Source: Sulfurovum sp. XGS-02
GTDB taxonomy: Bacteria; Campylobacterota; Campylobacteria; Campylobacterales; Sulfurovaceae
Length of the DNA stretch: 64,000 nt
NCBI RefSeq assembly: GCF_023213175.1
Contig: NZ_CP093312.1
Location: 310,001 to 374,000, forward strand
Direction: 5' to 3'
Position 1 is the stretch's first letter, and each line of letters opens with the position of its first letter. Under the pieces are notes generated by a model, which was not told the DNA's origin, searched no databases, and saw only the letters and a list, made by a program, of their open reading frames with translations. Positions 11,522-50,320 of the stretch are shown here, piece after piece. Made by a program: the position numbers and the translations under genes.

Positions 11522-12120
11522 TGGAAACACCGGAAATACATGTAGAAGAGTTAAAAAAAGATCCAGAGTTTCTGGCAAATATTCAAAGACTTGAAAAAGA
11601 GTGCAAGGAAGAAGAGAGCATTGCAAAAGGGTATCAGCTTTTAGATGCACAGCTCATCATTGAAGCTTCGGAAGATGAGATCAACGAGATATTTACCTTT
11701 ATTGTCAATACTGCCTTTGACAGACTGGCTGAAAAACTTACGACTTCCCAGTCATTTGATATGAATGACGCTGAGGACCTTGCCACGGCAAGAGCGATCT
11801 ATGAACACGGGATACAACGTTACAGCGAAAATGACAAAAAAGGTGCCAAGGAGATCTTTCTTGTCTTGCACTACACGATCGACCATGCAGCGCTGAAAGA
11901 TGCGATGATGGTACATGTAGCTGCAGTCATGGAAGGAATGAGTTTTGAAGATTTTATAGAAAATCTCGTCGATGTGGAAGGGGTAGATGCCCATGATCCT
12001 CTGGCATTTTTCATACAGACATTTACAGAGCCAACTGAGGCCTTGCTTGAAAAGTTTGATAGACATGTCAAGCAGGCACAAGAAGAACTCAGAGTGCTTG
12101 ATGAAAGCAAGGAACAGTAG
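11518..12120 (+). CDS. Conserved hypothetical acidic protein between the aminotransferase and murC
   Basis: 200 residues, strongly acidic, predicted mostly helical, with no signal peptide or membrane segment. The sequence repeats charged helices (DPEFLANIQRLEKECKEEE; ARAIYEHGIQRYSENDKKGAKEIFLVLHY); the latter resembles a TPR helix pair. I recognise no domain. It overlaps the aminotransferase stop by four bases and ends two bases before murC, so all three are probably translated from one message. No function is proposed. Confidence 0.75.
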   Translation: MMETPEIHVEELKKDPEFLANIQRLEKECKEEESIAKGYQLLDAQLIIEASEDEINEIFTFIVNTAFDRLAEKLTTSQSFDMNDAEDLATARAIYEHGIQRYSENDKKGAKEIFLVLHYTIDHAALKDAMMVHVAAVMEGMSFEDFIENLVDVEGVDAHDPLAFFIQTFTEPTEALLEKFDRHVKQAQEELRVLDESKEQ

Positions 12121-12122
12121 CG

Positions 12123-13439
12123 ATGAAAAAGATCCATTTTATCGGTATTGGGGGTATCGGACTCTCTGCATTGGCCAAGTTTCTCTTCAATGATGGACAC
12201 AAGATCTCCGGTTCGGATATCAAACAGACAGAGATCACTAATGACCTGGCAACGAACTTTGATGCGAAGATCACCATTCCCCATCATGCTGATGCGGTGG
12301 AGGGTGTCGACAGGGTGATCTACTCTGCGGCTGTTCGCCCCAACAACCCTGAGTACCAAAGAGCAAAGGAACTGGGTATTGAACTGCTTTCACGTAAAGA
12401 AGCTCTCAAGAGTATACTGGGTGAAAAAGAGGTCTATGCGGTGGGTGGTGCACATGGTAAGAGTACGACTTCAGCCATGCTCGCATCGATCATCCCTGAA
12501 TCCAATGCGCTTATCGGTGCGATCAGTAAAGAGTTTGGTTCAAATGTACGTAATTATCCTAACAACAAAGTGGTTTTTGAAGCGGATGAGAGTGATGAGA
12601 GTTTTTTAAATTCCAATCCCTATCTTGCGATCGTGACCAATGTTGAACCGGAGCATATGGAGTACTACGGGTATGATGAAGAGCGGTTTTATGCTGCCTA
12701 CAGAAACTTTTTGTCTCTGGCACAGATACGTGTGATCAATGCAGAAGATACATTCCTCGCTTCTTTAGAGATGGAGAGTATAAAACTCTACCCTTCCAAA
12801 GATATCACAAACATAGAGTTTGTCTTGGTAGAAGGTGAACCGCATACAAAATTCGAACTTTTGGACTTGGGTGCATTTGAGGTCTTTGGTTTTGGAAATC
12901 ACATTGCCTTGGATGCATCATTGGCGATACTGGGCGCCTTGGAGCTGGGCGAAAAGATCGAAGATATAAGGGAAAACCTTCTACACTACAAAGGGATCAA
13001 AAAACGTTTTGACATTGTACAAAACCAAGAAGAGTGTGTGGTGATCGATGACTATGGGCATCATCCAACAGAGATCAAAGTTACCATGGAGTCATTGCAA
13101 ACCTATAAAGGACTACGTCAATTCTCTAGACTCAATGTCATTTGGCAACCCCATAAGTATAGCCGTACGATGGATAACCTGCAAGGATTCGTAGAGTGTT
13201 TTGAGGGGGTGGATGAACTGGTGATCCTTCCTATCTGGGCTGCCGGGGAATTAGAGGTAGATATAGACCTAAAAGGGGCATTCAGCCGCTATAAACTTCT
13301 GATGGCAGACTCTGTGACGAAAGAAGACGGCATTGTCAAAGTCTTTAAAGACGGCCATATCATACAAGAATACAGTGACGGACTTGTCACAGCCTTCGGT
13401 GCAGGAGATATTACCTATCAGATACGGGGTGAAGCGTAA
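12123..13439 (+). CDS. murC: UDP-N-acetylmuramate--L-alanine ligase
   Basis: Cytoplasmic ATP-dependent ligase adding the first amino acid of the murein stem peptide. Mur-ligase features are in order: N-terminal Rossmann motif HFIGIGGIGLSALAKFL, ATP loop GGAHGKSTTSAMLA, the acidic EADESDESF and the C-terminal DDYGHHPTEI with HKYSRT. 438 residues, on the short side but within the range known for this phylum. AAGGAACAG precedes the ATG. Confidence 0.95.
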   Translation: MKKIHFIGIGGIGLSALAKFLFNDGHKISGSDIKQTEITNDLATNFDAKITIPHHADAVEGVDRVIYSAAVRPNNPEYQRAKELGIELLSRKEALKSILGEKEVYAVGGAHGKSTTSAMLASIIPESNALIGAISKEFGSNVRNYPNNKVVFEADESDESFLNSNPYLAIVTNVEPEHMEYYGYDEERFYAAYRNFLSLAQIRVINAEDTFLASLEMESIKLYPSKDITNIEFVLVEGEPHTKFELLDLGAFEVFGFGNHIALDASLAILGALELGEKIEDIRENLLHYKGIKKRFDIVQNQEECVVIDDYGHHPTEIKVTMESLQTYKGLRQFSRLNVIWQPHKYSRTMDNLQGFVECFEGVDELVILPIWAAGELEVDIDLKGAFSRYKLLMADSVTKEDGIVKVFKDGHIIQEYSDGLVTAFGAGDITYQIRGEA

Positions 13440-13447
13440 ACTTCACC
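13428..13447 (+). terminator. Hairpin across the murC stop codon
   Basis: GGTGAAG (13428-13434) pairs with CTTCACC (13441-13447) over a six-base loop containing the stop. There is no T-run, so this is a weak terminator or an mRNA-end structure. Confidence 0.35.
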
Positions 13448-13493
13448 TCGGTGCTTCAAAGTGAAAAACCACCATACTTTGATTTTTTTATGC

Positions 13494-13499
13494 TATAGT
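13494..13499 (+). promoter_or_regulatory. Possible -10 for the DUF481 gene
   Basis: TATAGT, 37 bases before the ATG, follows a T-rich stretch. Sequence match only. Confidence 0.35.
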
Positions 13500-13536
13500 C
13501 CCGACTTTAAAATATCATAGCGTAAGGAAACAACAT

Positions 13537-14328
13537 ATGAAGAGCAGAAGCATATTAACAGTATTGGCTTTGTTACTGCCAGTCGCTGTCATGGCTGAGG
13601 AAGTCAAGGTCTCCAATGTAGCATCAGAATTCTCAACCTATAAAAAGCTCAAGGCGAGCAAAGAGTTAAAGCAAAGTATCAATATCGGTTTTTCCAATGT
13701 GACAGGAAATACAGAGACATTCAGCCTGAATGGTAAATATGCCCTTTCCGTTACAACATCAGGATATAACGACAATCCACTGCAGATCATGTTCGATACA
13801 AGTGCATTTGTGACAGAGAACAATAATGTCAAAGACAATGAAGAGTACACTGCGAACCTTGCTTTAGAGCAGTTCGTGATCGAAAAATGGCTGGTCTATA
13901 CCTCTGTGCACTGGTTACGCAATACATTCAGAAACTATGACAATAAATCCTCTATCGCAGCGGGTGTGGGGAAAAAACTCTTTGATGACGGTCAGCATAT
14001 TTTCAAACTCAGAGCAGGTATTGCCTACAATATAGAACAATATACCAATGATCAGCCAGAAGAGTCCTTCTTCTCTTTTAACCAGTATCTAGAGTATACC
14101 AACCAGCTCAATAAAGTCAGTGCGCTGTATGTTAAAGTGGCTGCCCTTGAAAACTTCGAAAACTTTTCAGATGATTATGAAGTCCTGGCTGTAGCAGGCT
14201 TAACTTTTGCAGTGGCTGAAGATATCAATGTCAATTTGGAAGAAGAAGTACGCTATGACAATCTTCCTCCGATAGGATTTGAAACGACAGATACCAAAAC
14301 GATCATCAAAGTGGGATACAATTTTTAA
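13537..14328 (+). CDS. DUF481-type outer-membrane beta-barrel protein
   Basis: 263 residues starting with a clear signal peptide (SILTVLALLLPVAVMA, cut before EEVKV). The mature part alternates short polar/hydrophobic strands, begins with QSINIGFSNVTGNTETFSLNGKY as in DUF481 (YdiY-like) proteins, and ends in an aromatic residue (KVGYNF), the usual signature for outer-membrane insertion. Stand-alone gene with AAGGA before the ATG. Physiological role unknown. Confidence 0.8.
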   Translation: MKSRSILTVLALLLPVAVMAEEVKVSNVASEFSTYKKLKASKELKQSINIGFSNVTGNTETFSLNGKYALSVTTSGYNDNPLQIMFDTSAFVTENNNVKDNEEYTANLALEQFVIEKWLVYTSVHWLRNTFRNYDNKSSIAAGVGKKLFDDGQHIFKLRAGIAYNIEQYTNDQPEESFFSFNQYLEYTNQLNKVSALYVKVAALENFENFSDDYEVLAVAGLTFAVAEDINVNLEEEVRYDNLPPIGFETTDTKTIIKVGYNF

Positions 14329-14389
14329 TTTTTACAGTTAGCACCCCTGAAACTCCAGAAGCACTTTTTTGAACCTACATAAAATTCGC

Positions 14390-14395
14390 TATAAT
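14390..14395 (+). promoter_or_regulatory. Promoter (-10) of mutS2
   Basis: Perfect TATAAT 32 bases before the GTG start. GAGGAA near 14413 serves as ribosome site. Confidence 0.5.
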
Positions 14396-14427
14396 TCGGA
14401 TATTTAGCCAATTGAGGAACTTTAGAC

Positions 14428-16650
14428 GTGCCAATAGAAGAATCAAGCGAAAAAACGATCACACAAAAACTGGACCTGGATGGGTATATCCAGCAGTTCC
14501 AAAAGTTTTTAGCCAGAGAAAAACCTGTAGCAATGATGGGAGATATCAACCAGCATTATCGTTATATACAGGCACTTTCCCAAGTACAGTTTCCTACACC
14601 AAACCCCGTACCGAATCTTGATAGAGAACTCAATCTTATTAAAAAGCAAGGGGTGCTCTCACTGGATGAGATCTATGCTTTTGTTACCATAATCTCATAC
14701 TTCAATACCTTAAAGACAGTAGGTTTCACAGAACCTCTCATCTCCTGGATACAAGGGATAGAGATACCGGATGAGATCATCGAGGTCGTAGGGTATTTTA
14801 CTGCTGAAGGAGATATCAATGCTGAACGGGATCCGGAACTTTTTAAACTGGAACGTGCCATCAAGCAAAACAAGATAGAGATCAAAGAGACACTTTATAA
14901 ACTGGCACACTCCAGCAGACTCAGAGATTATCTTGTGGACACACAGGTACACTTCAACGGTGGGGAAGAGACCCTACTGGTACGCGGAGGATTTAACAAT
15001 GCGATCAAGGCTACCGTAGCTGCACGTAGCCCCGGTGGCTTTTTTTACATCATTCCTCAAAGTATCACCCATTTAAAAGAGAAAGAGTCTGCGCTGCTCA
15101 GTAAAAAAGAGGAGATGATCTACACCTACTGTAAAAACATCTCGGCGCTCTTTTTCAAATGGGAACGTTTTTTGGGATACGTGAACAAAGAGTATGACAG
15201 GTTCGACCACTATCAGGCACGTGTCAGCTTTGCAAGAGCCAAAGAGTATGAGTTTGTTTTGCCAAGCAAGCACAAACGCATTAAATTACAGGATTTTGCA
15301 CATCCTGCCATAGAGAACCCAGTCCCCATTACGATGGATTTTTCTAAACAGATCATGCTTGTCACAGGGGTCAATGCCGGGGGTAAAACGATGCTGCTCA
15401 AGTCCATGCTTTCAGCAGTCTACATGAGCAAGTATCTGCTTCCTTTCCAATGTAATGCAGCACAGACAGAGGTCGGGCACTACAAGAGCATAGAAGCGGT
15501 CATAGATGATCCTCAGTCGGTAAAAAATGATATCTCTACGTTTGCAGGGCGTATGCAGGAGTTTGCAAAACTCTTTCAGAAAGAAGATGCCATCGTAGGC
15601 GTCGATGAGATAGAATTGGGTACAGACAGTGATGAGGCAGCCAGTCTCTTTCGTGTGATGTTGGATGAATTGCGAAAAAAAGGTATCACGTTTATTGTGA
15701 CGACACACCATAAACGTTTGGCTTCACTGATGGCAGGTGATGATGAGGTGGAACTCATCGCAGCACTCTACGATGAAGAGAAAAGAGTGCCTACCTATAC
15801 ATTCCTTCAGGGAAGTATAGGAAAGAGCTATGCGTTTGAGACAGCACAGCGTTACGGGGTACCTGTAGCCATCGTGAACAGAGCAAAAAAGGTCTACGGA
15901 GAGGACAAAGAAAACCTCAATGAACTCATAGAGAAATCTACCTCACTTGAGCGTGAAATGCGTATGAAGATCGCCACAATAGATGATGAGTTAAAATCCG
16001 TAGAGAGACAAAAACAGAGACTTCAGGATGAAGAAGTGAAGCTTCAGGAGAGTCATAGAAAGGCCCTTGCAACCCTAGAGAACCGTTATAATGCAGCGAC
16101 AAAAAAAGCAAGAGAAGCCCTGAGGGCACAAGAGTCAGCAGAGGGACGACGACTGCTGAACGTGGCACATCAACGTAAAGATTTCAAGCAAAAAGAGGTG
16201 AAACTCAAAGATGAAGTGCCACTCAAAGAGGGTGATAAGGTGAAGTACCGCTCCCATAAAGGCGAGATAGTCGGGATCCGCGGTAAAGATGCGACGATCA
16301 TTGTTGACGGATTGAAGATGAGGGTGCCTTTGGGACAACTCAAAAAAAGAGGGGATACTCCTCAGATAAAGGTCAAACCCAAAGCAAAAGAGGTCAATGT
16401 CAATATTGAAAAGTCAGGGGCGGCTGTTTCTGTAAAACTACTAGGTATGTATGCAGATGAAGCGATAGATACAGTCGATAAATTTCTCTCGGATGCCCTG
16501 GTGAACGGTCTGCATGAAGTACAGATCATCCATGGTACAGGCGGGGGAGTGTTAGCCAAACTGGTGACAGAGTATCTTAAAAAGCATCCTAAGATACAGA
16601 AATTCTATAGACTGCCCGGAAACTTAGGCATTACAGTCGTCGAACTGTAG
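14428..16650 (+). CDS. mutS2: MutS2 family DNA-binding ATPase with Smr domain
   Basis: MutS2 acts in recombination control and ribosome rescue in different bacteria; in Helicobacter pylori it suppresses recombination. The 740-residue protein has a core region, a MutS-type ATPase (Walker A GVNAGGKTMLLKS, Walker B DEIELGTDSDEA, then TTHHKRLA), a long charged coiled coil (about 490-590) and a C-terminal Smr domain with HGTGGGVLAKLV. The usual LDLR/LDLRG start of Smr reads VKLLGMYADEA here. GTG start. No mutS1 or mutL is nearby. Confidence 0.92.
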   Translation: MPIEESSEKTITQKLDLDGYIQQFQKFLAREKPVAMMGDINQHYRYIQALSQVQFPTPNPVPNLDRELNLIKKQGVLSLDEIYAFVTIISYFNTLKTVGFTEPLISWIQGIEIPDEIIEVVGYFTAEGDINAERDPELFKLERAIKQNKIEIKETLYKLAHSSRLRDYLVDTQVHFNGGEETLLVRGGFNNAIKATVAARSPGGFFYIIPQSITHLKEKESALLSKKEEMIYTYCKNISALFFKWERFLGYVNKEYDRFDHYQARVSFARAKEYEFVLPSKHKRIKLQDFAHPAIENPVPITMDFSKQIMLVTGVNAGGKTMLLKSMLSAVYMSKYLLPFQCNAAQTEVGHYKSIEAVIDDPQSVKNDISTFAGRMQEFAKLFQKEDAIVGVDEIELGTDSDEAASLFRVMLDELRKKGITFIVTTHHKRLASLMAGDDEVELIAALYDEEKRVPTYTFLQGSIGKSYAFETAQRYGVPVAIVNRAKKVYGEDKENLNELIEKSTSLEREMRMKIATIDDELKSVERQKQRLQDEEVKLQESHRKALATLENRYNAATKKAREALRAQESAEGRRLLNVAHQRKDFKQKEVKLKDEVPLKEGDKVKYRSHKGEIVGIRGKDATIIVDGLKMRVPLGQLKKRGDTPQIKVKPKAKEVNVNIEKSGAAVSVKLLGMYADEAIDTVDKFLSDALVNGLHEVQIIHGTGGGVLAKLVTEYLKKHPKIQKFYRLPGNLGITVVEL

Positions 16651-28689: not shown

Positions 28690-29097
28690 TAATTTGACTT
28701 TGATTTTTCTTATATAATATAATTTATGTTCAGATTGCACCAACATGTATAGAGACATAAGCAGTAGAATAAGGTACCAAGAATGGCAATGCTCAAATAG
28801 AATTATATAGTTTAATATAGGTGGAATAGTGAAAATCAAAAAATAAAAATAAGATACAATCACTATTAAGTATTAAATATATTGTAAATAGGTATAATTA
28901 TTGTTATCTGAAGATGAGTATGTTTTCATCTGCTTAAGTACTTACTTTTGAAATTATTTCTGTAGCAGTTTTCCCTTTTAAATCGAAGAAATGAGTTCAC
29001 CTAAGTATTTTCATGAAGTGACACTTTTTTCTCTATATTTTTTACTTATTTCTATCTCAATTTTTTATCAACATTTAAATATACAAAATAATTATGT
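28690..29097. other. AT-rich gap at the left edge of the island
   Basis: About 400 bases without a credible gene; a 100-codon frame on the minus strand overlaps the rpsR leader and is not convincing. A TATAAT at 28893-28898 is the only promoter-like hexamer I can point to. This is the left junction of the segment separating rpsR from ssb. Confidence 0.5.
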
Positions 29098-29103
29098 TAG
29101 AAT
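29098..29103 (+). promoter_or_regulatory. Promoter (-10) of the tetR-hydrogenase operon
   Basis: TGTTAGAAT forms an extended -10 with its hexamer at 29098-29103. It overlaps the first possible ATG at 29094, which makes the downstream TTG at 29130 the better start. No TGAAT-N4-ATTCA palindrome is seen here, so the regulator does not appear to control itself through that motif. Confidence 0.5.
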
Positions 29104-29129
29104 GCTTTAAATACAAAAAAAGGATATTT

Positions 29130-29723
29130 TTGAAGATAGAAGATAAAAAAGCATTAAAAAGAGAGTCTATTATACAAACTGCCTTGCAACTTTTCTCTAT
29201 AAACGGTTTTCATAAAACAACTATACCTGATATTGCAGGAAAACTTCATATGAGTGTTGGAAATGTATATAATTATTTTTCATCTAAAGATATTTTGGCA
29301 CAAGCAATCATCAAATATACTTCAGAGGCATTAGGCGAGAAAATAAGAGAAGTTAATATGATGGATATAAGTGCTAAAGAGAAAATCCACAAAATAGTTG
29401 AAGTTTATTTTACTATGGCAAAAGAAAAACCTGAAATGATAGACTATTTCCTGCGCGTTTACTTGTCTAACAGAGAAGTATTTTCTGATGGTTGTGAAGG
29501 TATGGTATGTGTTTCTGGATTTATTACTGAGATTATGATTTTCTTTGATAGTGCTGTTTCTTCAAAAGAGTTACGCGATCAGGACTTTTTTTCTGCTTTT
29601 GGACTTTTTATGGGTTATTTGGGTGGGATGGTATTTCTCAACGGTGAAAATGTTTTGCCTAATGATATAGATTATTATATAGATGACATTTCGAATAACA
29701 TTTATAACGCTTTAAAGGCGTAA
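29130..29723 (+). CDS. TetR/AcrR-family transcription regulator
   Basis: 197 residues from TTG, which has AGGA five bases upstream. The N-terminal DNA-binding domain is canonical: ALKRESIIQTALQLFSINGFHKTTIPDIAGKL followed by MSVGNVYNYFSSKDILAQAII. The C-terminal ligand domain is helical with two Cys (GCEGMVCVSG). It lies three bases before a [NiFe]-hydrogenase small-subunit gene, so the three genes are almost surely one transcript. The island carries a repeated palindrome of the size TetR dimers bind; this protein is the prime candidate. Its effector is unknown; H2 or redox state relayed by the hydrogenase is my inference. Confidence 0.9.
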   Translation: MKIEDKKALKRESIIQTALQLFSINGFHKTTIPDIAGKLHMSVGNVYNYFSSKDILAQAIIKYTSEALGEKIREVNMMDISAKEKIHKIVEVYFTMAKEKPEMIDYFLRVYLSNREVFSDGCEGMVCVSGFITEIMIFFDSAVSSKELRDQDFFSAFGLFMGYLGGMVFLNGENVLPNDIDYYIDDISNNIYNALKA

Positions 29724-29726
29724 AAG

Positions 29727-30623
29727 ATGACAGGCCAAAACAAACCTAAATTGCTTTGGCTACAGTCCATTACTTGCAATGGGAACACGCACTCTTTTTT
29801 AAATCATCCAGACCTTTTTTCTATACTTTCACATTTTGAACTCGTACATCATCCTGCACTTGATACCGACTATAGTATGGAAGATATTATAGCAGGTGTA
29901 GTCCCTTGTGATGTACTCATCCTTGAAGGGTCTTTTCGCGAAGTTGGCTTTGTAAAAGGTGGGGTGGAAGTGTCATCTCTTATAGAACTATATGCAGAAA
30001 AAGCTAAGCATATTATCTCAGCAGGAACATGTGCAACGTTTGGTGGGATATTTAAACAAAAGGATCCTAAGAGTATTTCTGGTTTTTGTTTTGATGGAGA
30101 GGAAAAAACAAAGCGTTATCAAATCTATGCTTCTAAGCTCATTTCACTCCCGGGTTGTCCCATACATCCTAAGTGGCTCTCTTATGTACTTTTAATGATA
30201 GCGGGTAAGAAGGACATTCCTAGAGACAATTTGCACCGTCCTGTTGAGCTTTATGGGTACACTGTGCATACGGGCTGTACACGTAACGAGTACTTTGAAT
30301 GGAAGATAGACACAAAAAACTTTGGACTCAAAGAAGGGTGTCTTTTTTATGAACAAGGCTGTCAAGGACCTTATACGCGAGGAAGTTGTAATAAGATATT
30401 ATGGAACGACACAAGTTCTAAAACACGTGTAGGTACACCATGCTTTGGTTGTACCGAACCTAACTACCCAGGGGAGTCATTGTTTAGTACAAAAACCAAT
30501 ATGGGAATCCCCGATAAGATGCCTTTAGGTATTCCAAAACGTGCATACTTGACGCTCACGGGTGTGACTAAGAGTTTCCACATTAAACGTTTTTCAGAGC
30601 GAATTATGGAATATGATAAATGA
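29727..30623 (+). CDS. [NiFe]-hydrogenase small subunit, cytoplasmic group 2-like (sensor-like)
   Basis: 298 residues without Tat signal or membrane anchor, so cytoplasmic. It starts KPKLLWLQSITCNGNTHSFLN, matching group 2 small subunits. The first cluster motif is C17-x-G-N20 instead of CxGC. Other cluster motifs follow: AGTCATFGG, LPGCPIHP, HTGCTRNEYF, EQGCQGPYTRGSCN and CFGCTEPNYPG. Partner of the large subunit that starts four bases before its stop. The tetR partner and the unprocessed large subunit point to sensing rather than bulk H2 oxidation. Confidence 0.86.
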   Translation: MTGQNKPKLLWLQSITCNGNTHSFLNHPDLFSILSHFELVHHPALDTDYSMEDIIAGVVPCDVLILEGSFREVGFVKGGVEVSSLIELYAEKAKHIISAGTCATFGGIFKQKDPKSISGFCFDGEEKTKRYQIYASKLISLPGCPIHPKWLSYVLLMIAGKKDIPRDNLHRPVELYGYTVHTGCTRNEYFEWKIDTKNFGLKEGCLFYEQGCQGPYTRGSCNKILWNDTSSKTRVGTPCFGCTEPNYPGESLFSTKTNMGIPDKMPLGIPKRAYLTLTGVTKSFHIKRFSERIMEYDK

Positions 30624-31921
30624 ATAAAGTCACTATTAAACAACTTATAGAGAAGATAGAAGGCGAAGCAGAACTTGACTTTACGTTTAATAAAGGTAAG
30701 ATTGAAGATGTAAATATAAACTTTGGATTCTACCGTGGCATAGAAGAGATACTTAGAGGTAAAGATGCACGTGATGCATTAGTAATTACTCCACGCGTGT
30801 GCGGCATCTGCAATCATGCACATTTATTGACAGCAGTACGCGCCATTGAAAATGGTTATGAAAATGCAGGACTAAGGGTGAACCTAAGTTCCAAGGCGAA
30901 TGACATACGAGAATTTACTTTAGCTTGCGAACTCATACAAAACCATGTAAAGTGGTTTTACTTGACCATTATCCCACAGTTTGAAAAATATGTGGGTAAA
31001 CAAAGTAATGAGAATTATGCTATTAAGGCAACGTATCTTTCAAGTATTATTACTAAAGCTTTGGCTATATTCGCAGGACAATGGCCTCATTCTTCTTATG
31101 CAGTACCAGGTGGTGTAACTTGTGATCCTACACATCTTGATGTAATGCAAGCAGAAAGTCTAGTATATGAGTGTATTAAGTTCTTTGAAGACGTAATGAT
31201 AGGAGGATCTATGGATACGTATTTAACTATAGATTCAGTTACTTCATTGAATCAAATAGAAGGTGATTTTGGAAATTTATTGCATCTTATATCTGTGAAT
31301 GATATGGTAAAAGCTGGAAAGACTCATGGTAGATTTATCGTCTTTGGAGATTGTTCAATTTTTAAGCCAGGTAAATCGATCATTACTACAGTATCAAATG
31401 TTGATACAAGCTACGTAGAAGAAGAAATACAACCAGGTACTATGGCTAAGGCAGTGACTTACAAACAAAAGTTGTATGAAGTTGGACCACTTGCTAGAGG
31501 GATGGTGGCTAAAACACCTATAGTTAAAAGTTTGCATAAAAGTTACAAGGATTCTATGTTCACACGTATCTTTGCACGTGTGCATGAAGTTGCACTATTA
31601 CTGGAATATTCTAAAAATTTACTGCAAAATCTAAAGCTTGATGAACCTTCATGTGTATTAGATAAAAATGTTAGACCTGATGAATTTGAGGGAACAGGTG
31701 TCGTGGAAGCTGCAAGAGGTTCGCTGATACATAAGACGAGAGTAAAGGATAGAATCATCACAAACTATGATATCATTACCCCAACGCAGTGGAACCTCAG
31801 TCATGGAACAAAAGAAGAACAAGGCATCGCCGTACAAGCTATGATAGGTACCAGCAGCATTGAAGAAGCAACATTTATCTTTCGTACTTTTGATGTTTGC
31901 TCTGTCTGTACTACACAATAA
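30620..31921 (+). CDS. [NiFe]-hydrogenase large subunit without C-terminal extension (sensor-like)
   Basis: 433 residues. The N-terminal nickel motif is RVCGICNHAH (C61, C64, H68). The C-terminal one is DVCSVCTTQ (C427, C430) and ends the protein; Pro after Asp is replaced by Val and the usual His/Arg by Gln. Normal large subunits carry about 15-20 extra residues that a protease removes after nickel insertion. Lack of that tail is the known hallmark of H2-sensing hydrogenases (HupV, HoxC). I considered a frameshift, but the small subunit also fits group 2 and the frame is otherwise full length. Confidence 0.86.
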   Translation: MNKVTIKQLIEKIEGEAELDFTFNKGKIEDVNINFGFYRGIEEILRGKDARDALVITPRVCGICNHAHLLTAVRAIENGYENAGLRVNLSSKANDIREFTLACELIQNHVKWFYLTIIPQFEKYVGKQSNENYAIKATYLSSIITKALAIFAGQWPHSSYAVPGGVTCDPTHLDVMQAESLVYECIKFFEDVMIGGSMDTYLTIDSVTSLNQIEGDFGNLLHLISVNDMVKAGKTHGRFIVFGDCSIFKPGKSIITTVSNVDTSYVEEEIQPGTMAKAVTYKQKLYEVGPLARGMVAKTPIVKSLHKSYKDSMFTRIFARVHEVALLLEYSKNLLQNLKLDEPSCVLDKNVRPDEFEGTGVVEAARGSLIHKTRVKDRIITNYDIITPTQWNLSHGTKEEQGIAVQAMIGTSSIEEATFIFRTFDVCSVCTTQ

Positions 31922-31950
31922 ATCAATAAATTAAACTATTTTCAATAAAT

Positions 31951-32009
31951 TGAATACCTATTCATTTTATTTTAAGCTTCCTTTATCTACTATACTGAAT
32001 CATTATTCA
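31951..32009 (+). promoter_or_regulatory. Promoter with two TGAAT-N4-ATTCA operators, upstream of the cytochrome gene
   Basis: Palindromes TGAATACCTATTCA (31951-31964) and TGAATCATTATTCA (31996-32009) stand 45 bases apart. The -10 TATACT (31991-31996) shares its last base with the second one. The sequence between them (TTTAAGCTT and TACTATACT) is almost the same as in the hydA promoter at 32885-32943. Confidence 0.72.
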
Positions 32010-32063
32010 TTTTTAATATAAATATATTTAATGATATAAAATAAATAAAATAGGAAATACTTA

Positions 32064-32831
32064 ATGCATAATAAAGTGATGAGTCAACTAAATCTTCCTT
32101 CTCTTAGTATTTCAGTGAGAACACTGTTTACAGGTTACTTATTGGTTATGGGGATAGGATTCTTAATGGCAGGGATGCAAATTTTGCTTACACATGGTAT
32201 GGCAGATGGTAAAATAGGTGTATCAGTCGAAGACGTAGTATATAGTTATCATGGAAATAGAAACAGTAGTAAACTTGAAGTGAAATTACACGGTTCTATG
32301 AAAGACAAAGCCAATGATAAGGATAGGGCAACACTTGTAAAGTGGGCAAGAGAAGGTGCACCATTAGAACATTGGAAAAAAGAAGTACAGCCTATATTTG
32401 AAGCGAACTGCGTACAGTGTCATAGTACCATACCGGGATTAACTTCCTTTAAAGAGTATGAAGATACGGCAGAAGTAGCCAAAGTGGATATGGGTGCATC
32501 GGTTGATTCTCTTACAAGGGTATCTCACATACATCTTTTTGGTATTGCATTTATCTTCATCTTTGTGGGGTTTATTTTTTCTTTGGCAGTTGGAATTAAT
32601 GCAAAACTTAAAGCTTTTATTATTGCTATACCGTTTGCATTCCTGATCATTGATATCTCATCTTGGTGGATTACATCCATATTCCCAAGCTTCGCATGGT
32701 TTACAATAATTGGTGGTTTTGGATACATCATGGCATTTTCTTTTATGTGGATAGTATCAATCTATCAAATGTGGGTATTAGCTGGCAATAGTACTACATA
32801 TAGCAGTAATGAATGGTCTGATCAACCATAG
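32064..32831 (+). CDS. Membrane-bound mono-heme c-type cytochrome-like protein
   Basis: 255 residues. One N-terminal membrane segment (LFTGYLLVMGIGFLMAGMQIL), then a periplasmic domain ending in IFEANCVQCHST, a single CxxCH heme-c site near residue 118. Three more membrane helices follow (HLFGIAFIFIFVGFIFSLAVGI; AFIIAIPFAFLIIDISSWWI; FTIIGGFGYIMAFSFMWIVSIYQMWVLA). I do not recognise a named family. Its promoter is a near duplicate of the hydA promoter just downstream, so it probably serves electron transfer with the uptake hydrogenase. Start ATG with AGGAAA upstream. Confidence 0.78.
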   Translation: MHNKVMSQLNLPSLSISVRTLFTGYLLVMGIGFLMAGMQILLTHGMADGKIGVSVEDVVYSYHGNRNSSKLEVKLHGSMKDKANDKDRATLVKWAREGAPLEHWKKEVQPIFEANCVQCHSTIPGLTSFKEYEDTAEVAKVDMGASVDSLTRVSHIHLFGIAFIFIFVGFIFSLAVGINAKLKAFIIAIPFAFLIIDISSWWITSIFPSFAWFTIIGGFGYIMAFSFMWIVSIYQMWVLAGNSTTYSSNEWSDQP

Positions 32832-32884
32832 GATTAATATTTATTATGTAGTTTAATAAATTTTTAATAAATATTTAACTAAAA

Positions 32885-32943
32885 TGAATAATGATTCATT
32901 TTAGTTTAAGCTTATATTTTATACTATACTGAATGTTCATTCA
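32885..32943 (+). promoter_or_regulatory. hydABC promoter with two TGAAT-N4-ATTCA operators
   Basis: TGAATAATGATTCA (32885-32898; the palindrome extends into flanking AAAA/TTTT) and TGAATGTTCATTCA (32930-32943), again 45 bases apart. The -10 TATACT (32925-32930) overlaps the second site by one base. A protein bound there would block RNA polymerase. Confidence 0.75.
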
Positions 32944-32961
32944 CTTAAAAAAGGAGAAACG

Positions 32962-34200
32962 ATGAGTATGGATAGACAAGAATCCGTAAAAAAACTTTTT
33001 ACGGCACAAAGTGCGAAAGTAGAAACAAATAAAGGTGATGCCTATTATGATGAATTATATGATAAATGTCAAAATAGACTTAAAGAATTAGAAAAATTAC
33101 AACCTCTAAATAATAGAATGGATTTCAGAGAAAGTATTGAAGAGGAAGGTATAGAGAGAAGAGATTTCCTTAAGTGGGCATCTGCAACGACTGCAATGTT
33201 GATGCTACCTGCATCATTTACCCCACTTGTTGCTCAAGCTGCTGTTTTGATGAATCGCGTACCAGTAATATGGATAGAACTTCAAGATTGTGCTGGCAAC
33301 TCGGAAGCACTTTTAAGATCAGATGGACCACAAATAGATGAGATTATCTTAGATATCATCTCTCTTGAATTTCATGAAACACTTCAGGCAGCTTCTGGTC
33401 ACCAAGCTGAGAAACAAATGGATGAAGCTGCAGAGCATTTTCATGGAAAATATCTTCTATGTGTAGAAGGTGCGATTCCTATGGGCATGAACGGTCAGTA
33501 TGGAACAATTGGTGCAAAAGCTGAAACATTCCATGACCATTTACTGCGTATGTCTGAAGGTGCTGCGGCTGTAGTTGCCATAGGATCTTGTGCAACGTAT
33601 GGTGGTATCCCTGCAGCTGCACCAAATCCTACAGATGCTGTAGGTGTTATGGATGTTGTGAAAGGTAAGCCAGTTATAAATATACCAGCATGTCCTGCCA
33701 ACCCTTCAAATATGGTAGGGGTTATTTTACACTATGTATTGACTGGTTCTATACCTGAACTTGATTCTCTGCTTAGACCAAAGTTTGCTTTTGGTTATAG
33801 AATACATGACAACTGTGAAAGAAGAGCGCACTTTGATGCTGGAGAATATGTTGAGGAATGGGGTGATGAAGGTGCGAAAAATAACTTCTGTCTCTATAAA
33901 GTAGGATGTAAAGGTCCTATGACATTTAATAACTGTTCAATTATTAGATATAACGAAGGCGTGAATTGGCCTATTGGTGTTGGTAGAGGTTGTATAGGTT
34001 GTTCTGAGCCAGATTTCTGGGACAAATATGCGTATGAAAGACCGATGTCAGATGCAAATATTAAAGCCCCTACAGGTGGCGTTGAAAAGACGGTTGATGA
34101 GTTTGGTTTAGGTTTACTCACAGCAGCAGGTATAGGTATAGGTATTCATGCGGCAGCAAGTGCAATTGCAGGTAAAAGAGTAGATAAAGGAGAGTCATAA
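32962..34200 (+). CDS. hydA: Membrane-bound uptake [NiFe]-hydrogenase small subunit
   Basis: 412 residues. An unusually long leader precedes the Tat motif RRDFLKWASA (RR at 66-67) and its hydrophobic stretch, so the folded heterodimer is exported with the large subunit. Then follows IWIELQDCAGNSEALLRS, where the first cluster motif is C110-AG-N113. Further cluster ligands are GSCATYGG, PACPANP, HDNCERR, CLYKVGCKGPMTFNNC and GCIGCSEPDFWD. A C-terminal hydrophobic helix (GLGLLTAAGIGIGIHAAASA) anchors it. Closest in kind to group 1b HydA of Wolinella and Helicobacter. AAGGAG before ATG. Confidence 0.93.
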   Translation: MSMDRQESVKKLFTAQSAKVETNKGDAYYDELYDKCQNRLKELEKLQPLNNRMDFRESIEEEGIERRDFLKWASATTAMLMLPASFTPLVAQAAVLMNRVPVIWIELQDCAGNSEALLRSDGPQIDEIILDIISLEFHETLQAASGHQAEKQMDEAAEHFHGKYLLCVEGAIPMGMNGQYGTIGAKAETFHDHLLRMSEGAAAVVAIGSCATYGGIPAAAPNPTDAVGVMDVVKGKPVINIPACPANPSNMVGVILHYVLTGSIPELDSLLRPKFAFGYRIHDNCERRAHFDAGEYVEEWGDEGAKNNFCLYKVGCKGPMTFNNCSIIRYNEGVNWPIGVGRGCIGCSEPDFWDKYAYERPMSDANIKAPTGGVEKTVDEFGLGLLTAAGIGIGIHAAASAIAGKRVDKGES

Positions 34201-36041
34201 TGCAAATTAATAATCAAGGAACAGTTACTGAATCAATGGAATCAGTAGACTCAAAGGGCTATCATAAAACTGACAGATCAGGTAAAAAGCATATTATTGT
34301 TGATCCAATTACAAGAATTGAAGGTCATCTTAGGATTGAAGCAGTAATAGATAAAGATAATACGATTGTAGATGCATTTAGTTCATCAACAATGTTTAGA
34401 GGAATAGAAACAATACTTAAAGGAAGAGACCCAAGAGATTGTGGTTTGATGGCTATGCGTATTTGTGGTGTATGTACTGGTACACACTACCAAAGAAGTA
34501 TTGAAGCGGTAGAAGATGCATTTGATATTACTATCCCTAAAAATGCAAGACTTGTTAGAAATTTAATTCAAGGAGCTCTGTATATACATGATCATCTTGT
34601 ACACTTCTATCATTTACATGCACTTGATTTTGTCGATGTTGTAGCGGCAACCAAAGCAGACCCTTATTTAACAGCAGTTGAAGCAGCTAAATGGGGTAAG
34701 GTGGCAGGGGTTGCTCCATATATCTCAGATCCCAATGAATTTAAAGTTATTCAGGAGCGTATAATCAAGTTTGTAAAAGAGGGAAGGCTGGGTATCTTTG
34801 GTAATGGATATTGGGGTAACGATCATTATGAACTTACACCAGAACAAAATCTGATTGGTGTGGCTCACTATCTTAAAGCACTTGATATACAACGAGATAT
34901 GGCAAAGATGCAAGCTATTTTTGGTGGAAAGAACCCTCACCCTCAATCTATCGTTGTTGGTGGTGTTACTTGTGTTCAAGATATTAAAAATCCTGCTAGG
35001 ATATCGCTTTATCAGCAATTGCTGAAAGATTCTACAGATTTTGTTAAGAGGGCATATCTTCCAGATATTTATATGGCAGGTACTATGTATGCTAAAGAGG
35101 CAACAGATACCGATGCAACATATAAAGGTGTAGGTGGGACAGGTGGAGGAATACTCTCCTATATGACTTATGGAGATTTTAGACTTGACGATACAGGTTT
35201 TTATAATTCAGCAACTCTTTTCCCTTCAGGTCTTGTACTTGATGGTGATATCAGCAAAGTATTTGAAGTTGAGCAAGAAAAGATTACGGAAGATGTAACA
35301 CATTCTTGGTATGAAGGTACAGGTGCTCCTGAACATCCATATGAGGGGACAACTATCCCTAAATTTACAGGGCTTGAGAAAAAAGAAGATGGATATTCTT
35401 ACTTAAAAACAGATGAAAAGTACTCTTGGATTAAATCTCCTCTTTATGATGGTAAAAAAGTAGAAGTTGGGCCACTTGCTCGTATGGTGGTTGGATATGC
35501 AAAAGGCGATAAGAGAATTAAAAAATATGTAGGTAATTTTTTAAAAAGATCAGGATTGCCATTAACTGTTCTCTTCTCAACTGTAGGTAGAACAGCTGCA
35601 CGGGCTATTGAAACTGAGCTTATGTGTGATGCGATGAAGGAGTGGGTTGGCGAGTTGGCAAAAAATGCTGCAATGGGTGACCTTAGTACATGGACAGAGT
35701 TTGATTTTGATAGTGTAAGTGTTGATACAAAAGGTGTCGGACTTGCTGAAGCACCAAGAGGATCTTTAGGACACTGGGTAAAAATCAAAGATGGAAAGGT
35801 TGAAAACTATCAAGCCGTTGTTCCATCAACGTGGAATGCAGGCCCTAGAGGTCCAAATGGTGAAATGGGTGCTTATGAAGCAAGTCTTATAGGTACAAAA
35901 GTAGCTAACCCTGAGGAACCGTTAGAAATTATTAGAACTATTCATAGCTTTGATCCTTGTATTGCTTGTGCGGTACATGTAGTGGACACAAAAGGTAAGG
36001 AGTTAGCTGTATATAAAGTTGACCCTACCTGTGCCTTCTAA
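34200..36041 (+). CDS. hydB: Membrane-bound uptake [NiFe]-hydrogenase large subunit
   Basis: 613 residues carrying the NiFe active site: N-terminal RICGVCTGTH (C89, C92, H96) and C-terminal DPCIACAVH (C587, C590, H593). After H593 comes a 20-residue tail that a maturation protease must remove. No signal of its own; it rides with HydA. Start overlaps the hydA stop by one base (TAATG). Oxidises H2 in the periplasm and passes electrons to HydC and quinone. Confidence 0.95.
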   Translation: MQINNQGTVTESMESVDSKGYHKTDRSGKKHIIVDPITRIEGHLRIEAVIDKDNTIVDAFSSSTMFRGIETILKGRDPRDCGLMAMRICGVCTGTHYQRSIEAVEDAFDITIPKNARLVRNLIQGALYIHDHLVHFYHLHALDFVDVVAATKADPYLTAVEAAKWGKVAGVAPYISDPNEFKVIQERIIKFVKEGRLGIFGNGYWGNDHYELTPEQNLIGVAHYLKALDIQRDMAKMQAIFGGKNPHPQSIVVGGVTCVQDIKNPARISLYQQLLKDSTDFVKRAYLPDIYMAGTMYAKEATDTDATYKGVGGTGGGILSYMTYGDFRLDDTGFYNSATLFPSGLVLDGDISKVFEVEQEKITEDVTHSWYEGTGAPEHPYEGTTIPKFTGLEKKEDGYSYLKTDEKYSWIKSPLYDGKKVEVGPLARMVVGYAKGDKRIKKYVGNFLKRSGLPLTVLFSTVGRTAARAIETELMCDAMKEWVGELAKNAAMGDLSTWTEFDFDSVSVDTKGVGLAEAPRGSLGHWVKIKDGKVENYQAVVPSTWNAGPRGPNGEMGAYEASLIGTKVANPEEPLEIIRTIHSFDPCIACAVHVVDTKGKELAVYKVDPTCAF

Positions 36042-36051
36042 GGAGTATATT

Positions 36052-36801
36052 ATGAAACCCGGATATAAAAAAATTGAACGGATGAACGCCACCACGCGTA
36101 TCATCCACTGGACCAATGTTTTTTCGATGATTGTTGCTGTAGCAACGGGGCTTTATATTGCTCATCCTTATTATCAGACCTTTATTGCTGATCCTGCTGT
36201 AGATAAATATGTCATGGCATGGAACCGTTGGGGACATTTTATTGTTGCAATTATTTTTGATGTTACATCGATTGTCATTTTTTATCTTGCTTTTTCAACA
36301 CGTTTCCTCAAGGTGAAACCATATAAAAAAGACATACCTACGCAGAGTAATATAAAACAGTTTTTTGAGGTATTTTTAAATCTTGTGACACTTAATAAAC
36401 GTAAAAAGTTTGATTCAAGCTATCTTGATAGTTTTAATTCAGTTTATTTCACGATCTTCCACTTGTTGCTAGTGTGGATGCTTTTGACTGGACTTCAGTT
36501 GTATGTACATGGTTTAGCTTCTGGCCTTAGTTCAATTGGTGAGTGGTGGCCATGGATGTTACACCTTATAACAGATTGGACAATTCCCGTAAGTGGCTGG
36601 TTAATCGGTTCTGGGCCTACAGCTTCTATCATGGATGTGCGTATTTCACACCATTATACAATGTGGTGGATCATTGCTTGGGTAGTCTTTCATATTTATT
36701 ATCAAGTATGGCGTAGCATTTTCTGGAAAGAAGGTGATATTAATATTGTGATAGGTGGCGGTAAGTATGTAAAAATAAAGGAGGATGACAAAGAAGCATA
36801 G
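36052..36801 (+). CDS. hydC: Hydrogenase cytochrome b subunit
   Basis: 249 residues, di-heme membrane cytochrome b that links HydAB to menaquinone. Four membrane helices are visible (WTNVFSMIVAVATGLYIA; HFIVAIIFDVTSIVIFYLAF; FTIFHLLLVWMLLTGLQLY; HYTMWWIIAWVVFHIYYQVW), with heme-ligand candidates in RIIHWTNV, HFIVA, HLLL and HHYTMWW...FHIYYQ. The ATG at 36052 has AAGGAG seven bases upstream; longer readings run into hydB. AT-rich like the rest of the cluster. Confidence 0.93.
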   Translation: MKPGYKKIERMNATTRIIHWTNVFSMIVAVATGLYIAHPYYQTFIADPAVDKYVMAWNRWGHFIVAIIFDVTSIVIFYLAFSTRFLKVKPYKKDIPTQSNIKQFFEVFLNLVTLNKRKKFDSSYLDSFNSVYFTIFHLLLVWMLLTGLQLYVHGLASGLSSIGEWWPWMLHLITDWTIPVSGWLIGSGPTASIMDVRISHHYTMWWIIAWVVFHIYYQVWRSIFWKEGDINIVIGGGKYVKIKEDDKEA

Positions 36802-36826: not shown

Positions 36827-37399
36827 ATGGTCTATCAAAAAATAGCACTCATCGGTATAGGAAATATTATGTTTCATGATGAGGGACTTGGTGTTTATCT
36901 TGTAAAGTATATAGAAGAAAATTACCATATTCCAGATAATTTAACTATTGTAGAAGGTGGGACATTGGGGTTTAGCCTCATGACCTACTATCAAGAGTAT
37001 GATAAAGTTATTATTGTAGGTACGAGTTCTAAAGATGGTGATATAGGTACTATATACTCTGAATCAAGTGAAGAAGTTATGGCTCAAGGTGGCACACGCC
37101 AAACTGCAAACGAAGTTGAGATCACCATGATGCTTGAGATATGTTCTTTTCATGAAGATATGGGAGAAGTACAACTTATTACTATGGTTCCCGAGGACAT
37201 CATAGATGTATGCAATGGACTGACTAATTCAGTACTTAGTCATATGCCAAAACTTGTAGATGCCACTTTAGAAGAGTTGGAAAACTCTGGTGTTAGATTG
37301 AAAAGAACTCTTTGTAGTCGAGTTTCCTTTGAGACTATAATAGATGCCTATGCTAATCCCAAAATGGCAGATTACAATGACATGTCAATGTTAGTATAA
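36827..37399 (+). CDS. hydD: Hydrogenase maturation protease (HydD/HyaD type)
   Basis: 190-residue nickel-dependent endopeptidase that trims the HydB tail. Family motifs: ALIGIGNIMFHDEGLGVYLV at the N-terminus, with Asp/Glu in the nickel site, and VEGGTLGFSLMTYY. The second conserved Asp (usually DA/DS after VIIV) reads VGTSSKDG here, a small departure. Fifth-position gene hydE follows only after two inverted-repeat elements. Confidence 0.88.
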   Translation: MVYQKIALIGIGNIMFHDEGLGVYLVKYIEENYHIPDNLTIVEGGTLGFSLMTYYQEYDKVIIVGTSSKDGDIGTIYSESSEEVMAQGGTRQTANEVEITMMLEICSFHEDMGEVQLITMVPEDIIDVCNGLTNSVLSHMPKLVDATLEELENSGVRLKRTLCSRVSFETIIDAYANPKMADYNDMSMLV

Positions 37400-37721: not shown

Positions 37722-39647
37722 ATGTACTTTATTTTTGAAATCGAGTTTTCATCAAACAAAAATTATATAGCAGAGCTCATCAGGGCATATGCTAGACAAG
37801 AACAAGTAGAAGTAGATGTACTGCAGAGTGCAGAGAAAATAACTATGATATTTAACAAAGATGATGAAAATCTTGAACATTTTTTACTTGGCATTGAAGA
37901 AATCATACCTGCATCACTGTTCCTGGGTAAAGGTAAACACTATTTTGCAGAGGAAAAACCAGTGCTAATGCCTGTTTCTAAGTCGAAATTACCTCTAAAT
38001 ATTGCTCCGTGTCCAACATGTCAGAAAGAAATGTTTGATGTAAGCAGTCGGCGTTACTATTACCCTTTTACTTCCTGTAATCACTGTGGTTCTCAACATC
38101 CATTTGTAGATAAATACCCTTACGAACGTCCCAATACTTTTATGAAGTTTCTTGCACCTTGCGAAGACTGTCTAAGTGAAACTAAAAAGAATGCTTTACG
38201 TTTAGACTATCCACTCATTTCATGTATAGAGTGTGGTATAGCGATACGTATGTTGGACAAAGAGAGTGAACACTTAGCACTGAACAAAGGTGATTATAGA
38301 AGACTTTTTGAGGTTAGCGGCAGAGCCATAGCAAAAGGTAAGCACGTGTTGATGAAAACGACACATGGCTTTAGAAAGTTTTTTAAACCTACCGCTGAGT
38401 ATAGCCCAGTTACAAGTACACTACTAATGGCTGACGTCAATGGATTTAATGTACATCTCATGATGGTAGAGCAAGAATTTAATGCACTTCTGAGTATCGA
38501 GAGACCGTTACTTAGAGTTGCTACCAAAAGTGATGAGCTAAAAGCACTCTATGGCTCAAGTGTACAAGTGAAGTATCCAGATGATGGTATGACTATGCTT
38601 CTTGCACGTGAACTTATGACTGCTGGACTTCAGTACATATCATACATCGAGTGTGACAGTGATGAAGAGGCAGATTTCTTAGTGGATTTTGATATGCCTA
38701 TTAACCCTCAACAGGATATGAAGATATTTATAAACCAAGACAAAAAATTATTTGTTTCTGGTAAGCGTATATTATTCCCAGCAGCGGTGCAGAGTAATAA
38801 AAATAGAGTAATAGTAGCCCATGATTTAGCATGTGTACAAACAGGAAAACAGAGTGTGATAGACTCTGTAGCCGTATTTGACACAGTAGATACTGAAGAA
38901 CTCTATGTACTAGAAACAGAAGATTTTGATGGTGGTCATAGCAATGAACATCGTTTTGAACAGTATGAAGCCTCAATGATGTCTGTACTTGCAGAGCACT
39001 ATAAAGTAGGCCAAAAAGCTATAGGTGTACATTTCGATGGTTCACTGAACTTTCTCTACTACAATGGAAAAAAAGTTATTAATGCTGTACCTGCGATAGC
39101 GTTTGAATCAGATAACCTTTGGGAAAAGGTAAGTACACTTAGAGAAGGATCAGATAGGCTTGTAGGAAATTACAAGAAAGCATATCCTGAAGTATTTGAT
39201 CGTTTAGATAATCTCGAAGGTGATATGGATATCTTTGAAGTGACAGCCATTGCTTTAGGTCTTGAAGATGAGAGTATTGAAGGTATATCAGCTGAAGCAT
39301 TGAGCTTTTTAGGTAAAGGTGGACTACAAATAGACACTAGGGTTAAAGACAACCGTTTTGATAACTACGCATTTTTGACAAGTATCATGAGTTATCAGCT
39401 AGGGGGTGTTGAGAGTAACTTCATGTGTTATAGTATTTATGAGTCTTTGGGTGACTATATAGGAGAGATAGTCCCTCAACTCATGGATAAAACAGAAGCC
39501 ACAGTCATCACACTTACAGGTGAGACATTTGCTAACCAATCACTCTATGGCAGAATACAAAAAACATTGGGTGCAAAAAACCCATTGATGAATAAAAGTT
39601 TCCCTATAGGGAAAGAGAATGCTGTATATGGGGCATTGTATTTATGA
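37722..39647 (+). CDS. hydE: HypF-like hydrogenase accessory protein (HydE)
   Basis: 641 residues related to carbamoyltransferase HypF but altered. The N-terminal acylphosphatase domain is replaced by an unrelated 90-residue stretch. The two HypF zinc fingers are intact (C97/C100, C119/C122, C147/C150, C168/C171; PFTSCNHCG, YPYERPNTFM). A YrdC-like part follows (ERPLLRVATKSDEL). The Kae1-like C-terminal domain lacks the HHHAH-type metal site (here HRFEQYEAS). Position after hydABCD matches HydE of Wolinella/Helicobacter. It probably helps maturation, but not with normal HypF chemistry. AGGAG before ATG. Confidence 0.75.
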   Translation: MYFIFEIEFSSNKNYIAELIRAYARQEQVEVDVLQSAEKITMIFNKDDENLEHFLLGIEEIIPASLFLGKGKHYFAEEKPVLMPVSKSKLPLNIAPCPTCQKEMFDVSSRRYYYPFTSCNHCGSQHPFVDKYPYERPNTFMKFLAPCEDCLSETKKNALRLDYPLISCIECGIAIRMLDKESEHLALNKGDYRRLFEVSGRAIAKGKHVLMKTTHGFRKFFKPTAEYSPVTSTLLMADVNGFNVHLMMVEQEFNALLSIERPLLRVATKSDELKALYGSSVQVKYPDDGMTMLLARELMTAGLQYISYIECDSDEEADFLVDFDMPINPQQDMKIFINQDKKLFVSGKRILFPAAVQSNKNRVIVAHDLACVQTGKQSVIDSVAVFDTVDTEELYVLETEDFDGGHSNEHRFEQYEASMMSVLAEHYKVGQKAIGVHFDGSLNFLYYNGKKVINAVPAIAFESDNLWEKVSTLREGSDRLVGNYKKAYPEVFDRLDNLEGDMDIFEVTAIALGLEDESIEGISAEALSFLGKGGLQIDTRVKDNRFDNYAFLTSIMSYQLGGVESNFMCYSIYESLGDYIGEIVPQLMDKTEATVITLTGETFANQSLYGRIQKTLGAKNPLMNKSFPIGKENAVYGALYL

Positions 39648-40520: not shown

Positions 40521-40871
40521 GACAATAAAGAAGATGAATGCAACACAATACCTCCAGATGTGAGTACCTGTGAAGAGTGTCAAGCTGAACTATTTGATCC
40601 TTCTAACCATCGTTACGGATATCCGTTCATTACTTGTGCAAATTATGGAGTACGTTATTCTATTATGAATGACTTGCCTTATGAGCGTAAAAATACTTCT
40701 ATGAGATTTTTTGAGATGTGTAGTACCTGTGAGAAAGAATATACTGATCTCCTAGACAGACGCTATCATGCACAGCCAATAGGGTGTTGGAAGTGTGGAC
40801 CACAATTAACATTATATGACAATGTAGGTCAAGATCTATCAAGGTCGAAAATCATTGCAAAATATAACTAA
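40521..40871 (+). pseudogene. hypF: hypF remnant: zinc-finger region only
   Basis: From just after an in-frame stop (40518-40520) the frame reads ECNTIPPDVSTCEECQAELFDPSNHRYGYPFITCANYG..., the start of the HypF zinc-finger domain, and runs through YHAQPIGCWKCGPQLTLYDN, where HypF would continue into its YrdC domain. Here it stops. One zinc Cys is Tyr (CANY for CxxC). Acylphosphatase, YrdC and Kae1 domains are missing. A GTG at 40560 could start a 103-residue protein, but decay is the simpler reading. No intact hypF is in the window. Confidence 0.7.
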
Positions 40872-41428: not shown

Positions 41429-41486
41429 TTGACATTTATAATAAAAAAGGCTATACTCCAAAAATAATCTAATGAATGATTATTCA
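41429..41486 (+). promoter_or_regulatory. Sigma-70 promoter and TGAAT-N4-ATTCA operator of the DUF4395-cys operon
   Basis: TTGACA (41429-41434), 17 bases, TATACT (41452-41457): a textbook promoter, the best in the window. TGAATGATTATTCA (41473-41486), within a longer TAATGAATG.../...CATTCATTA symmetry, lies just after the expected transcription start. This is the same operator as in front of the hydrogenase genes. Confidence 0.75.
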
Positions 41487-41522
41487 TTCATTAAGATATT
41501 AAAACTTTATTTAGGAGTCGAA

Positions 41523-50295: not shown

Positions 50296-50320
50296 TACTA
50301 TTATGGTGAATAGTAATTCA
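50296..50320 (+). promoter_or_regulatory. Promoter and TGAAT-N4-ATTCA operator of the nickel permease-hyp operon
   Basis: TGAATAGTAATTCA at 50307-50320 begins three bases after a TATTAT hexamer (50299-50304; TACTAT at 50296-50301 is the alternative), the same geometry as at the hydA and cytochrome promoters. AGGAG and the ATG follow within 20 bases. Confidence 0.7.

Follow-up and report, generated by a model that had tools for sequence, protein, structure and literature searches.

Four perfect TGAAT-N4-ATTCA palindromes, two in the promoter of a cytochrome gene and two in that of the uptake hydrogenase gene hydA, are probably operators of a TetR-family regulator encoded upstream (TetR1), or of its paralogue TetR2, which would repress at the -10/start region and tie these units into one hydrogenase regulon. 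They were found in a stretch of 64,000 nucleotides (the window), corresponding to C1:310001-374000 of a 2.19 Mb genome, and the nearest named relatives of TetR1 bear the label Sulfurovum. Direct computation covers the sites and their fixed place, the genes around them, the TetR fold and the joint occurrence of TetR with both operator and HupSL.

On the forward strand, the genes run from position 29094 in the order TetR, HupS-like, HupL-like, cytochrome, HydA, HydB, HydC and HydD. TetR1 (29094..29723, 209 residues as listed) perhaps starts at the TTG codon at 29130, where several orthologue matches begin (residue 13). Its N-terminal helix-turn-helix matched TetR_N (PF00440, E 2.3e-12, 46.9 bits for a cut-off of 24), its AlphaFold model (pLDDT 87) displayed an all-helical TetR fold with a C-terminal ligand/dimer domain, and a fold search gave 326 PDB matches at E<=0.001; the 50 listed among them were regulators, mostly named as TetR family. 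The gene of a HupS-like [NiFe] hydrogenase small subunit (29727..30623; PF14720, PF01058) starts 4 bases past the TetR1 stop and is followed by that of a HupL-like large subunit (30620..31921; PF00374), which ends directly after its CxxC motif, without C-terminal extension. The cytochrome (32064..32831, 255 residues) shows one CxxCH heme motif in its translation and a sub-threshold PccH match (19.7 bits, cut-off 24.4). HydA (32962..34203; Pfam, TIGR00391) is the small subunit of a group 1-type uptake hydrogenase and carries a twin-arginine motif, with a TAT_signal score of 21.8 bits, slightly below the cut-off of 22.7. It is followed on the same strand by HydB (34200-36041), the cytochrome b HydC (36052-36801) and the protease HydD (36827-37399). 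Of the two operator-bearing gaps, one lies 3' of hupL and the other 3' of the cytochrome gene. Further along, the window encodes a divergent 641-residue HypF-like protein (37722-39647; zf-HYPF, with a sub-threshold HypF_C_2 match) and a short downstream ORF (40560-40871) that is 34% like it.

Each of the two promoters holds two operators on the forward strand with starts exactly 45 bases apart, as the first-pass annotation had stated: 31951..31964 and 31996..32009 for the cytochrome, 32885..32898 and 32930..32943 for hydA. The block that it had placed between them, TTTAAGCTT, is an exact match in both (31971..31979 and 32905..32913). The shared -10 sequence was also recovered, TACTATACTGAAT being present at 31988-32000 and 32922-32934, but its definition was refined to TACTAT (31988..31993 and 32922..32927), which makes the stronger -10 candidate: across 74 promoters aligned on one operator, TANNAT has its maximum exactly 8 bases upstream of the first operator base (30 promoters, and 10 more at -9). 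TATACT (31991-31996) is an alternative for the cytochrome promoter. The near-identity reported for the two promoters amounts to 78% over 73-base stretches lying 934 apart. A TTTAAG-like element was found at -25 from the operator start among the 74 aligned promoters, single-operator hydA promoters included. In the accessible text of a report on C. jejuni (PMC3824568), the -35 element is TTTAAGTnTT, with a 19-bp spacer for cj0183; TTTAAGYTT in our promoters resembles this motif but stands about 10 bases closer to the -10 box. As a general promoter element of the genome, TTTAAG was discarded, TTTAAG-N6..24-TATAAT being in weak excess (30 matches for 20 in the control).

If TANNAT is the -10 box, the distal site is centred at -42.5 (45 spacing) or -41.5 (44 spacing). 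In the cytochrome promoter, the proximal operator would then reach from about -4 to +10 and its distal counterpart from about -49 to -36. The two would thereby bracket the core promoter, a geometry read from the letters. A scan of 28800-33100 for sigma-70 promoters and terminators remained at chance level (25 vs 21.3 and 2 vs 1.9, respectively), and palindromes with two mismatches allowed showed no excess in the window (57 vs 76 in shuffles); it is the perfect sites that count. A TetR dimer on the proximal site would cover the -10/start region and block RNA polymerase, while the distal site, whose last base lies about 36 bases ahead of the start, would let TetR dock a second time, at the upstream limit of the core promoter, and could tighten or tune control. 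We infer that TetR1 is the binding protein and the repressor, as well as what releases it. The regulon would comprise the cytochrome and hydABCD and, through single proximal operators, the hyp operon and another hydrogenase operon. For the matched expression expected of the cytochrome and hydA units, shared control is supported at the sequence level, both carrying the operator of the TetR-adjoining hydrogenase regulon.

The 2.19 Mb genome contains 13 perfect palindromes, for 2 matches to a reversed-pattern control. According to their context, nine of the 13 front hydrogenase-cluster genes: two each for the cytochrome, hydA and a truncated hydA2, and single sites at 50307, 955913 and 968445. 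The operator at 50307..50320 (forward strand), with TATTAT at 50299-50304, precedes a HupE/NicO-like membrane gene, then hypB and hypD. HypB and HypD are Pfam matches; the first gene has no Pfam match, and its label is based only on likeness to a paralogue whose own NicO match is sub-threshold. Site 955913 fronts an operon with a sulfide-quinone-reductase-like gene first and a further hydrogenase later, site 968445 fronts the second HupE/NicO-like gene, and sites 964350 and 964395 form a third perfect pair 45 apart, before hydA2. A TATNNT box exactly 8 bases before a perfect operator gave four mismatch-free matches in the genome, all in hydrogenase promoters, although this test is partly circular since the pattern was derived from these same promoters; those of the cytochrome and hydA were among its nine one-mismatch matches. 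The four perfect sites outside hydrogenase clusters are window 41473 and genome 237641, 1292534 (inside an ORF) and 1573399. Behind the site at window 41473 lies an operon that includes genes for a DUF4395 membrane protein and a cysteine-synthase-like protein, and TGAATGATTATTCATTCA is common to window 41473-41490 and genome 1573399; this site may belong to another TetR or may extend the regulon. The promoter of TetR1 itself had no good operator, and autoregulation of tetR1 was not retained, the best site found upstream (28915) carrying 2 mismatches; one-mismatch sites do precede TetR in certain other loci. The genome also has a second hydrogenase locus in decay (L015, G000:C1:953000-972000, 10549-16558), in which TetR2 (77% identical) is intact, HupL is reduced to a 29-residue tail and hydA breaks off after about 64 residues. 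This locus further contains an operator pair 45 apart, a protease gene and, following the second HupE/NicO-like gene, HypD fragments.

Orthologues of TetR1 (E below 1e-70) were found in 20 of 60 relatives, own genome counted. A scan with an alignment of 18 TetR sequences yielded 79 loci, 72 of which were kept after removal of weak matches (L162-L168); they range over Sulfurovum, Sulfurimonas, Sulfurospirillum (L115, L116), Sulfuricurvum, Nitratiruptor, Hydrogenimonas, Nautiliaceae, Arcobacteraceae and Aquificota. TetR adjoins HupS in 66 of the 72 named loci (60 with HupS at most 700 bp after, six with HupS overlapping the TetR end), and HydA lies at most 3 kb after HupL in 50 of them, contig ends cutting many others. 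In two Aquificota loci (L151, L152), TetR immediately precedes hydA, and both one-mismatch sites and a perfect one are present; elsewhere in these genomes, beyond the stretches fetched, HupL relatives were found. When 5-N4-5 palindromes were counted without bias, TGAAT-N4-ATTCA ranked first, with 43 of 67 regions (shuffles 0.095, maximum 2), 11 regions shorter than 62 bases (HupS cross-matches or contig ends) being kept in the count. The 53 distinct named TetR-linked hydA promoters came from a named scan made without use of the operator; a perfect site is present in 41 of them and a site with at most one mismatch in 51. The wider promoter set gave 56 and 69 of 73, respectively (shuffles 0.15 and 3.4). 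Further hydA copies in TetR-bearing genomes have a perfect site in two of 12 cases (L190, L197), which argues for a selective regulon. In one genome of another family (G034; L081/L082), TetR is 79% identical to that of the window, hydA has a 44-base pair, and TetR-HupSL lies about 21 kb from hydA on the contig, which may reflect horizontal transfer.

Genomes without TetR served as a control. In 15 genomes lacking an intact TetR, none of the 21 hydA upstream stretches has a perfect site and two have a site with one mismatch. These 21 include the two stretches of G412, which has only an 82-residue TetR fragment and was left out of the site-count test; they exclude G223 and G419 (perfect pairs), G405 (hydA at the contig start) and a second, partial copy in G401. 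No TetR was detected in G419, yet a 45-base pair precedes its hydA; the contig ends inside hupS, and TetR may therefore simply be absent from the assembly. G223 (99% complete) has an operator pair, 45 apart, before hydA, with neither a TetR orthologue nor HupL, and represents either a recent loss or an exception to the model. Among same-genus genomes, perfect sites averaged 6.5 with TetR (n=11) and 1.6 without (n=25; p 1.8e-5, or 4e-5 with the own genome omitted); outside the genus, raw site counts fail to separate genomes with and without TetR. A transposase ORF (PF01609) was noted just upstream of the operator pair and hydA of G223 (L080, G223:C62).

TetR and HupSL are inherited together. 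HupL (E below 1e-40) was present in 21 of the same 60 genomes: 20 have both, one has HupL only (G419), one has a TetR fragment only (G412, 58% complete) and 38 have neither (Fisher p 1e-13). Because HydA occurs in 38 of the 60, TetR tracks HupSL and not hydA alone. In an alignment from which six rows with stops were dropped, 69 of 71 TetR sequences have both Cys134 and Cys139; the remaining two are paralogues with 44-45% identity. One Hydrogenimonas MAG locus (L158, about 290-1500) harbors two tandem TetR paralogues (41-44%) by a hydrogenase cluster, one of them without the Cys pair. Nine of the 11 cysteines of HupS are invariant in a 65-row alignment; HupL retains RxCGxCxxxH in 56 of 58 full-length relatives and ends just after CxxC in 57 of 58. 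HupSL is labelled here as a putative group 2 hydrogenase, following the accessible portions of PMC7952632 (section 14), PMC2628731 and PMC11406935.

Because TetR is inherited together with HupSL, lies only 4 bases from it here and has conserved cysteines, an H2 or redox signal passing from HupSL to TetR is our leading, though tentative, guess. HupSL would sense H2 and pass electrons or a redox signal to Cys134/Cys139, upon which TetR would leave the hydA, cytochrome and hyp operators; this complete chain of events is plausible rather than probable. If true, it would represent a previously unrecognised H2-sensing switch in Campylobacterota and Aquificota, which the second operator added by the Sulfurovum clade at about -42 may make tighter or two-way.

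Perfect pairs with starts 30-60 apart were found in 11 of 398 genomes of the order and in none with the reversed control; the 13 pairs have spacings of 45 (seven), 44 (three), 41, 34 and 58. Among 78 promoter regions, pairs 14-100 apart have spacings of 45 (13), 44 (3), 41 (1), 16 (1) and 86 (2), counts that are biased by the inclusion of some loci fetched for having pairs, and the unbiased named hydA set gave 45 (8), 16 (1) and 86 (2). The hydA2 and G419 promoters add two 45-base pairs. In the TetR tree, the rows with 44-45 pairs fall inside one supported group of 21 (100/99), together with 4 unpaired and 4 of no known state, and the pair label needs 4 changes; in this tree the 41-base pair of G260 is labelled not paired, the paired L091 and L160 are omitted for stops, and G156 is absent. 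Pairs of 41 (G260) and 58 (G156) occur outside the supported group. We regard the 44-45 bp pair as an elaboration, largely confined to the Sulfurovum clade, of a promoter with one operator.

Equal spacing had been read as a sign of cooperative binding or looping. Short-range contact between two TetR dimers on paired sites, which the spacing would serve, is unlikely, even if it accommodates the maintenance of 44-45 bases in diverged promoters. A distance of 45 bp represents about 4.3 helical turns, far below the DNA persistence length, and would place the dimers on different faces; moreover, the 31 bp in between are hard to loop and are the expected place of RNA polymerase, and many orthologous promoters are single-site. 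Helical phase and the location of the core promoter between the two sites thus both disfavor looping, and the 44-45 bp are explained at least as well if the distal site is anchored at the upstream core-promoter edge. Distinctly improbable is a dual behavior, in which TetR would activate from the distal site and repress from the proximal one depending on its state. The distal centre is near -42, where class II activators sit, and in most paired promoters its position varies by no more than 1 base; however, most TetR proteins are repressors, and it is the proximal, blocking site that single-site promoters retain.

Repression by TetR1 or TetR2 at the proximal operator, our preferred reading, also has to be weighed against shared ancestry, since the likeness of the two promoters had been ascribed to duplication. 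A recent duplication, with likeness reflecting descent and no common regulator, would fit their 78% identity and the 21 equal bases among 40 non-motif positions (shuffle mean 13.7, p 0.008), a likeness that fades beyond about -80 to +20. However, either promoter agrees to a similar degree (0.38-0.57 at non-motif positions) with the paired promoters of other genomes, motif positions are conserved while the remainder drifts, and the cytochrome and hydA promoters of L133 carry one operator each. Recent duplication was rejected on the grounds that non-motif likeness is no greater than between promoters of different genomes, and ancestry of this kind has little chance of being the explanation; duplication as such is not specifically supported by the comparison of these sequences, although an old one may have occurred. 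Equally poor is the case for a different regulator, either a further TetR or a FadR-like protein with the same half-site, for which two more distant TetR matches in the genome, TGAATGATTATTCATTCA in both the cysteine-operon site and genome 1573399, and the pair retained by G223 could be invoked, but against which same-genus operator counts track TetR1 orthologues and the operator lies by the TetR gene in many Campylobacterota loci and in the two from Aquificota.

The B. subtilis FadR operator, TGAATGAMTANTCATTCA, is built on the same half-sites, TGAAT and ATTCA. FadR (YsiA), itself of the TetR family, is among the nearest solved folds of TetR1 (3whb, TM 0.76), at about 18% identity, and TetR1 scored 41.4 bits against the FadR equivalog NF053878, far from its cut-off of 200. 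Unlike FadR, TetR1 has hydrogenase genes as putative targets, and its orthologues keep Cys134/Cys139.

The presence of a TetR gene beside hupSL is already in print. In S. multivorans, a TetR-like gene upstream of hupSL was suggested to encode a hupSL repressor (Kruse 2017, PMC5357620), and the accessible text of that report describes the same order of TetR then hupSL, with hydB nearby by locus tag. That paper points TetR at hupSL, whereas the operators found here point to hydA. In S. multivorans, hydB transcripts were reported from almost every condition tested, an argument against tight repression in that organism, and the role of HupSL was termed unclear (PMC5357620, same text). The Nautilia genome paper (PMC2628731), in its accessible part, assigned H2 sensing to the group 2 enzyme by phylogeny and proposed that the group 1 enzyme is constitutive, and the portion available of a 2019 review (PMC6682613) names no specific hydABC regulator for free-living species. 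Beyond the remark of Kruse 2017 (PMC5357620), none of the literature matches listed, as far as their available text goes, describes the operator, the proposed regulon or a TetR-HupSL link. H2 oxidation powers many vent and sediment Campylobacterota, and the control of their hydrogenase genes is little known. Now that an operator is defined, a regulon proposed and a TetR protein seen to be co-inherited with HupSL, this question becomes directly testable, and the fixed operator pair offers a ready promoter for mutational work. What makes the system interesting is its testable link to H2 sensing and its fixed double operator, rather than looping or promoter duplication.

HoxBC/HupUV is an H2-sensing regulatory hydrogenase that works with the kinase HoxJ/HupT and the NtrC-type regulator HoxA/HupR. 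A large subunit without cleavable C-terminal peptide, in which the NiFe cysteines are kept, is a feature of regulatory hydrogenases, though not unique to sensors. Like HoxBC/HupUV, HupSL has neither a C-terminal extension nor an evident export signal and its genes adjoin those of a regulator and of an uptake hydrogenase. A scan of nine cluster proteins revealed no HoxJ/HupT kinase and, unlike HoxBC/HupUV, HupSL has a one-component TetR protein as its putative partner. The regulatory architecture is real and conserved: it is an ordinary TetR-operator switch in an unusual partnership.
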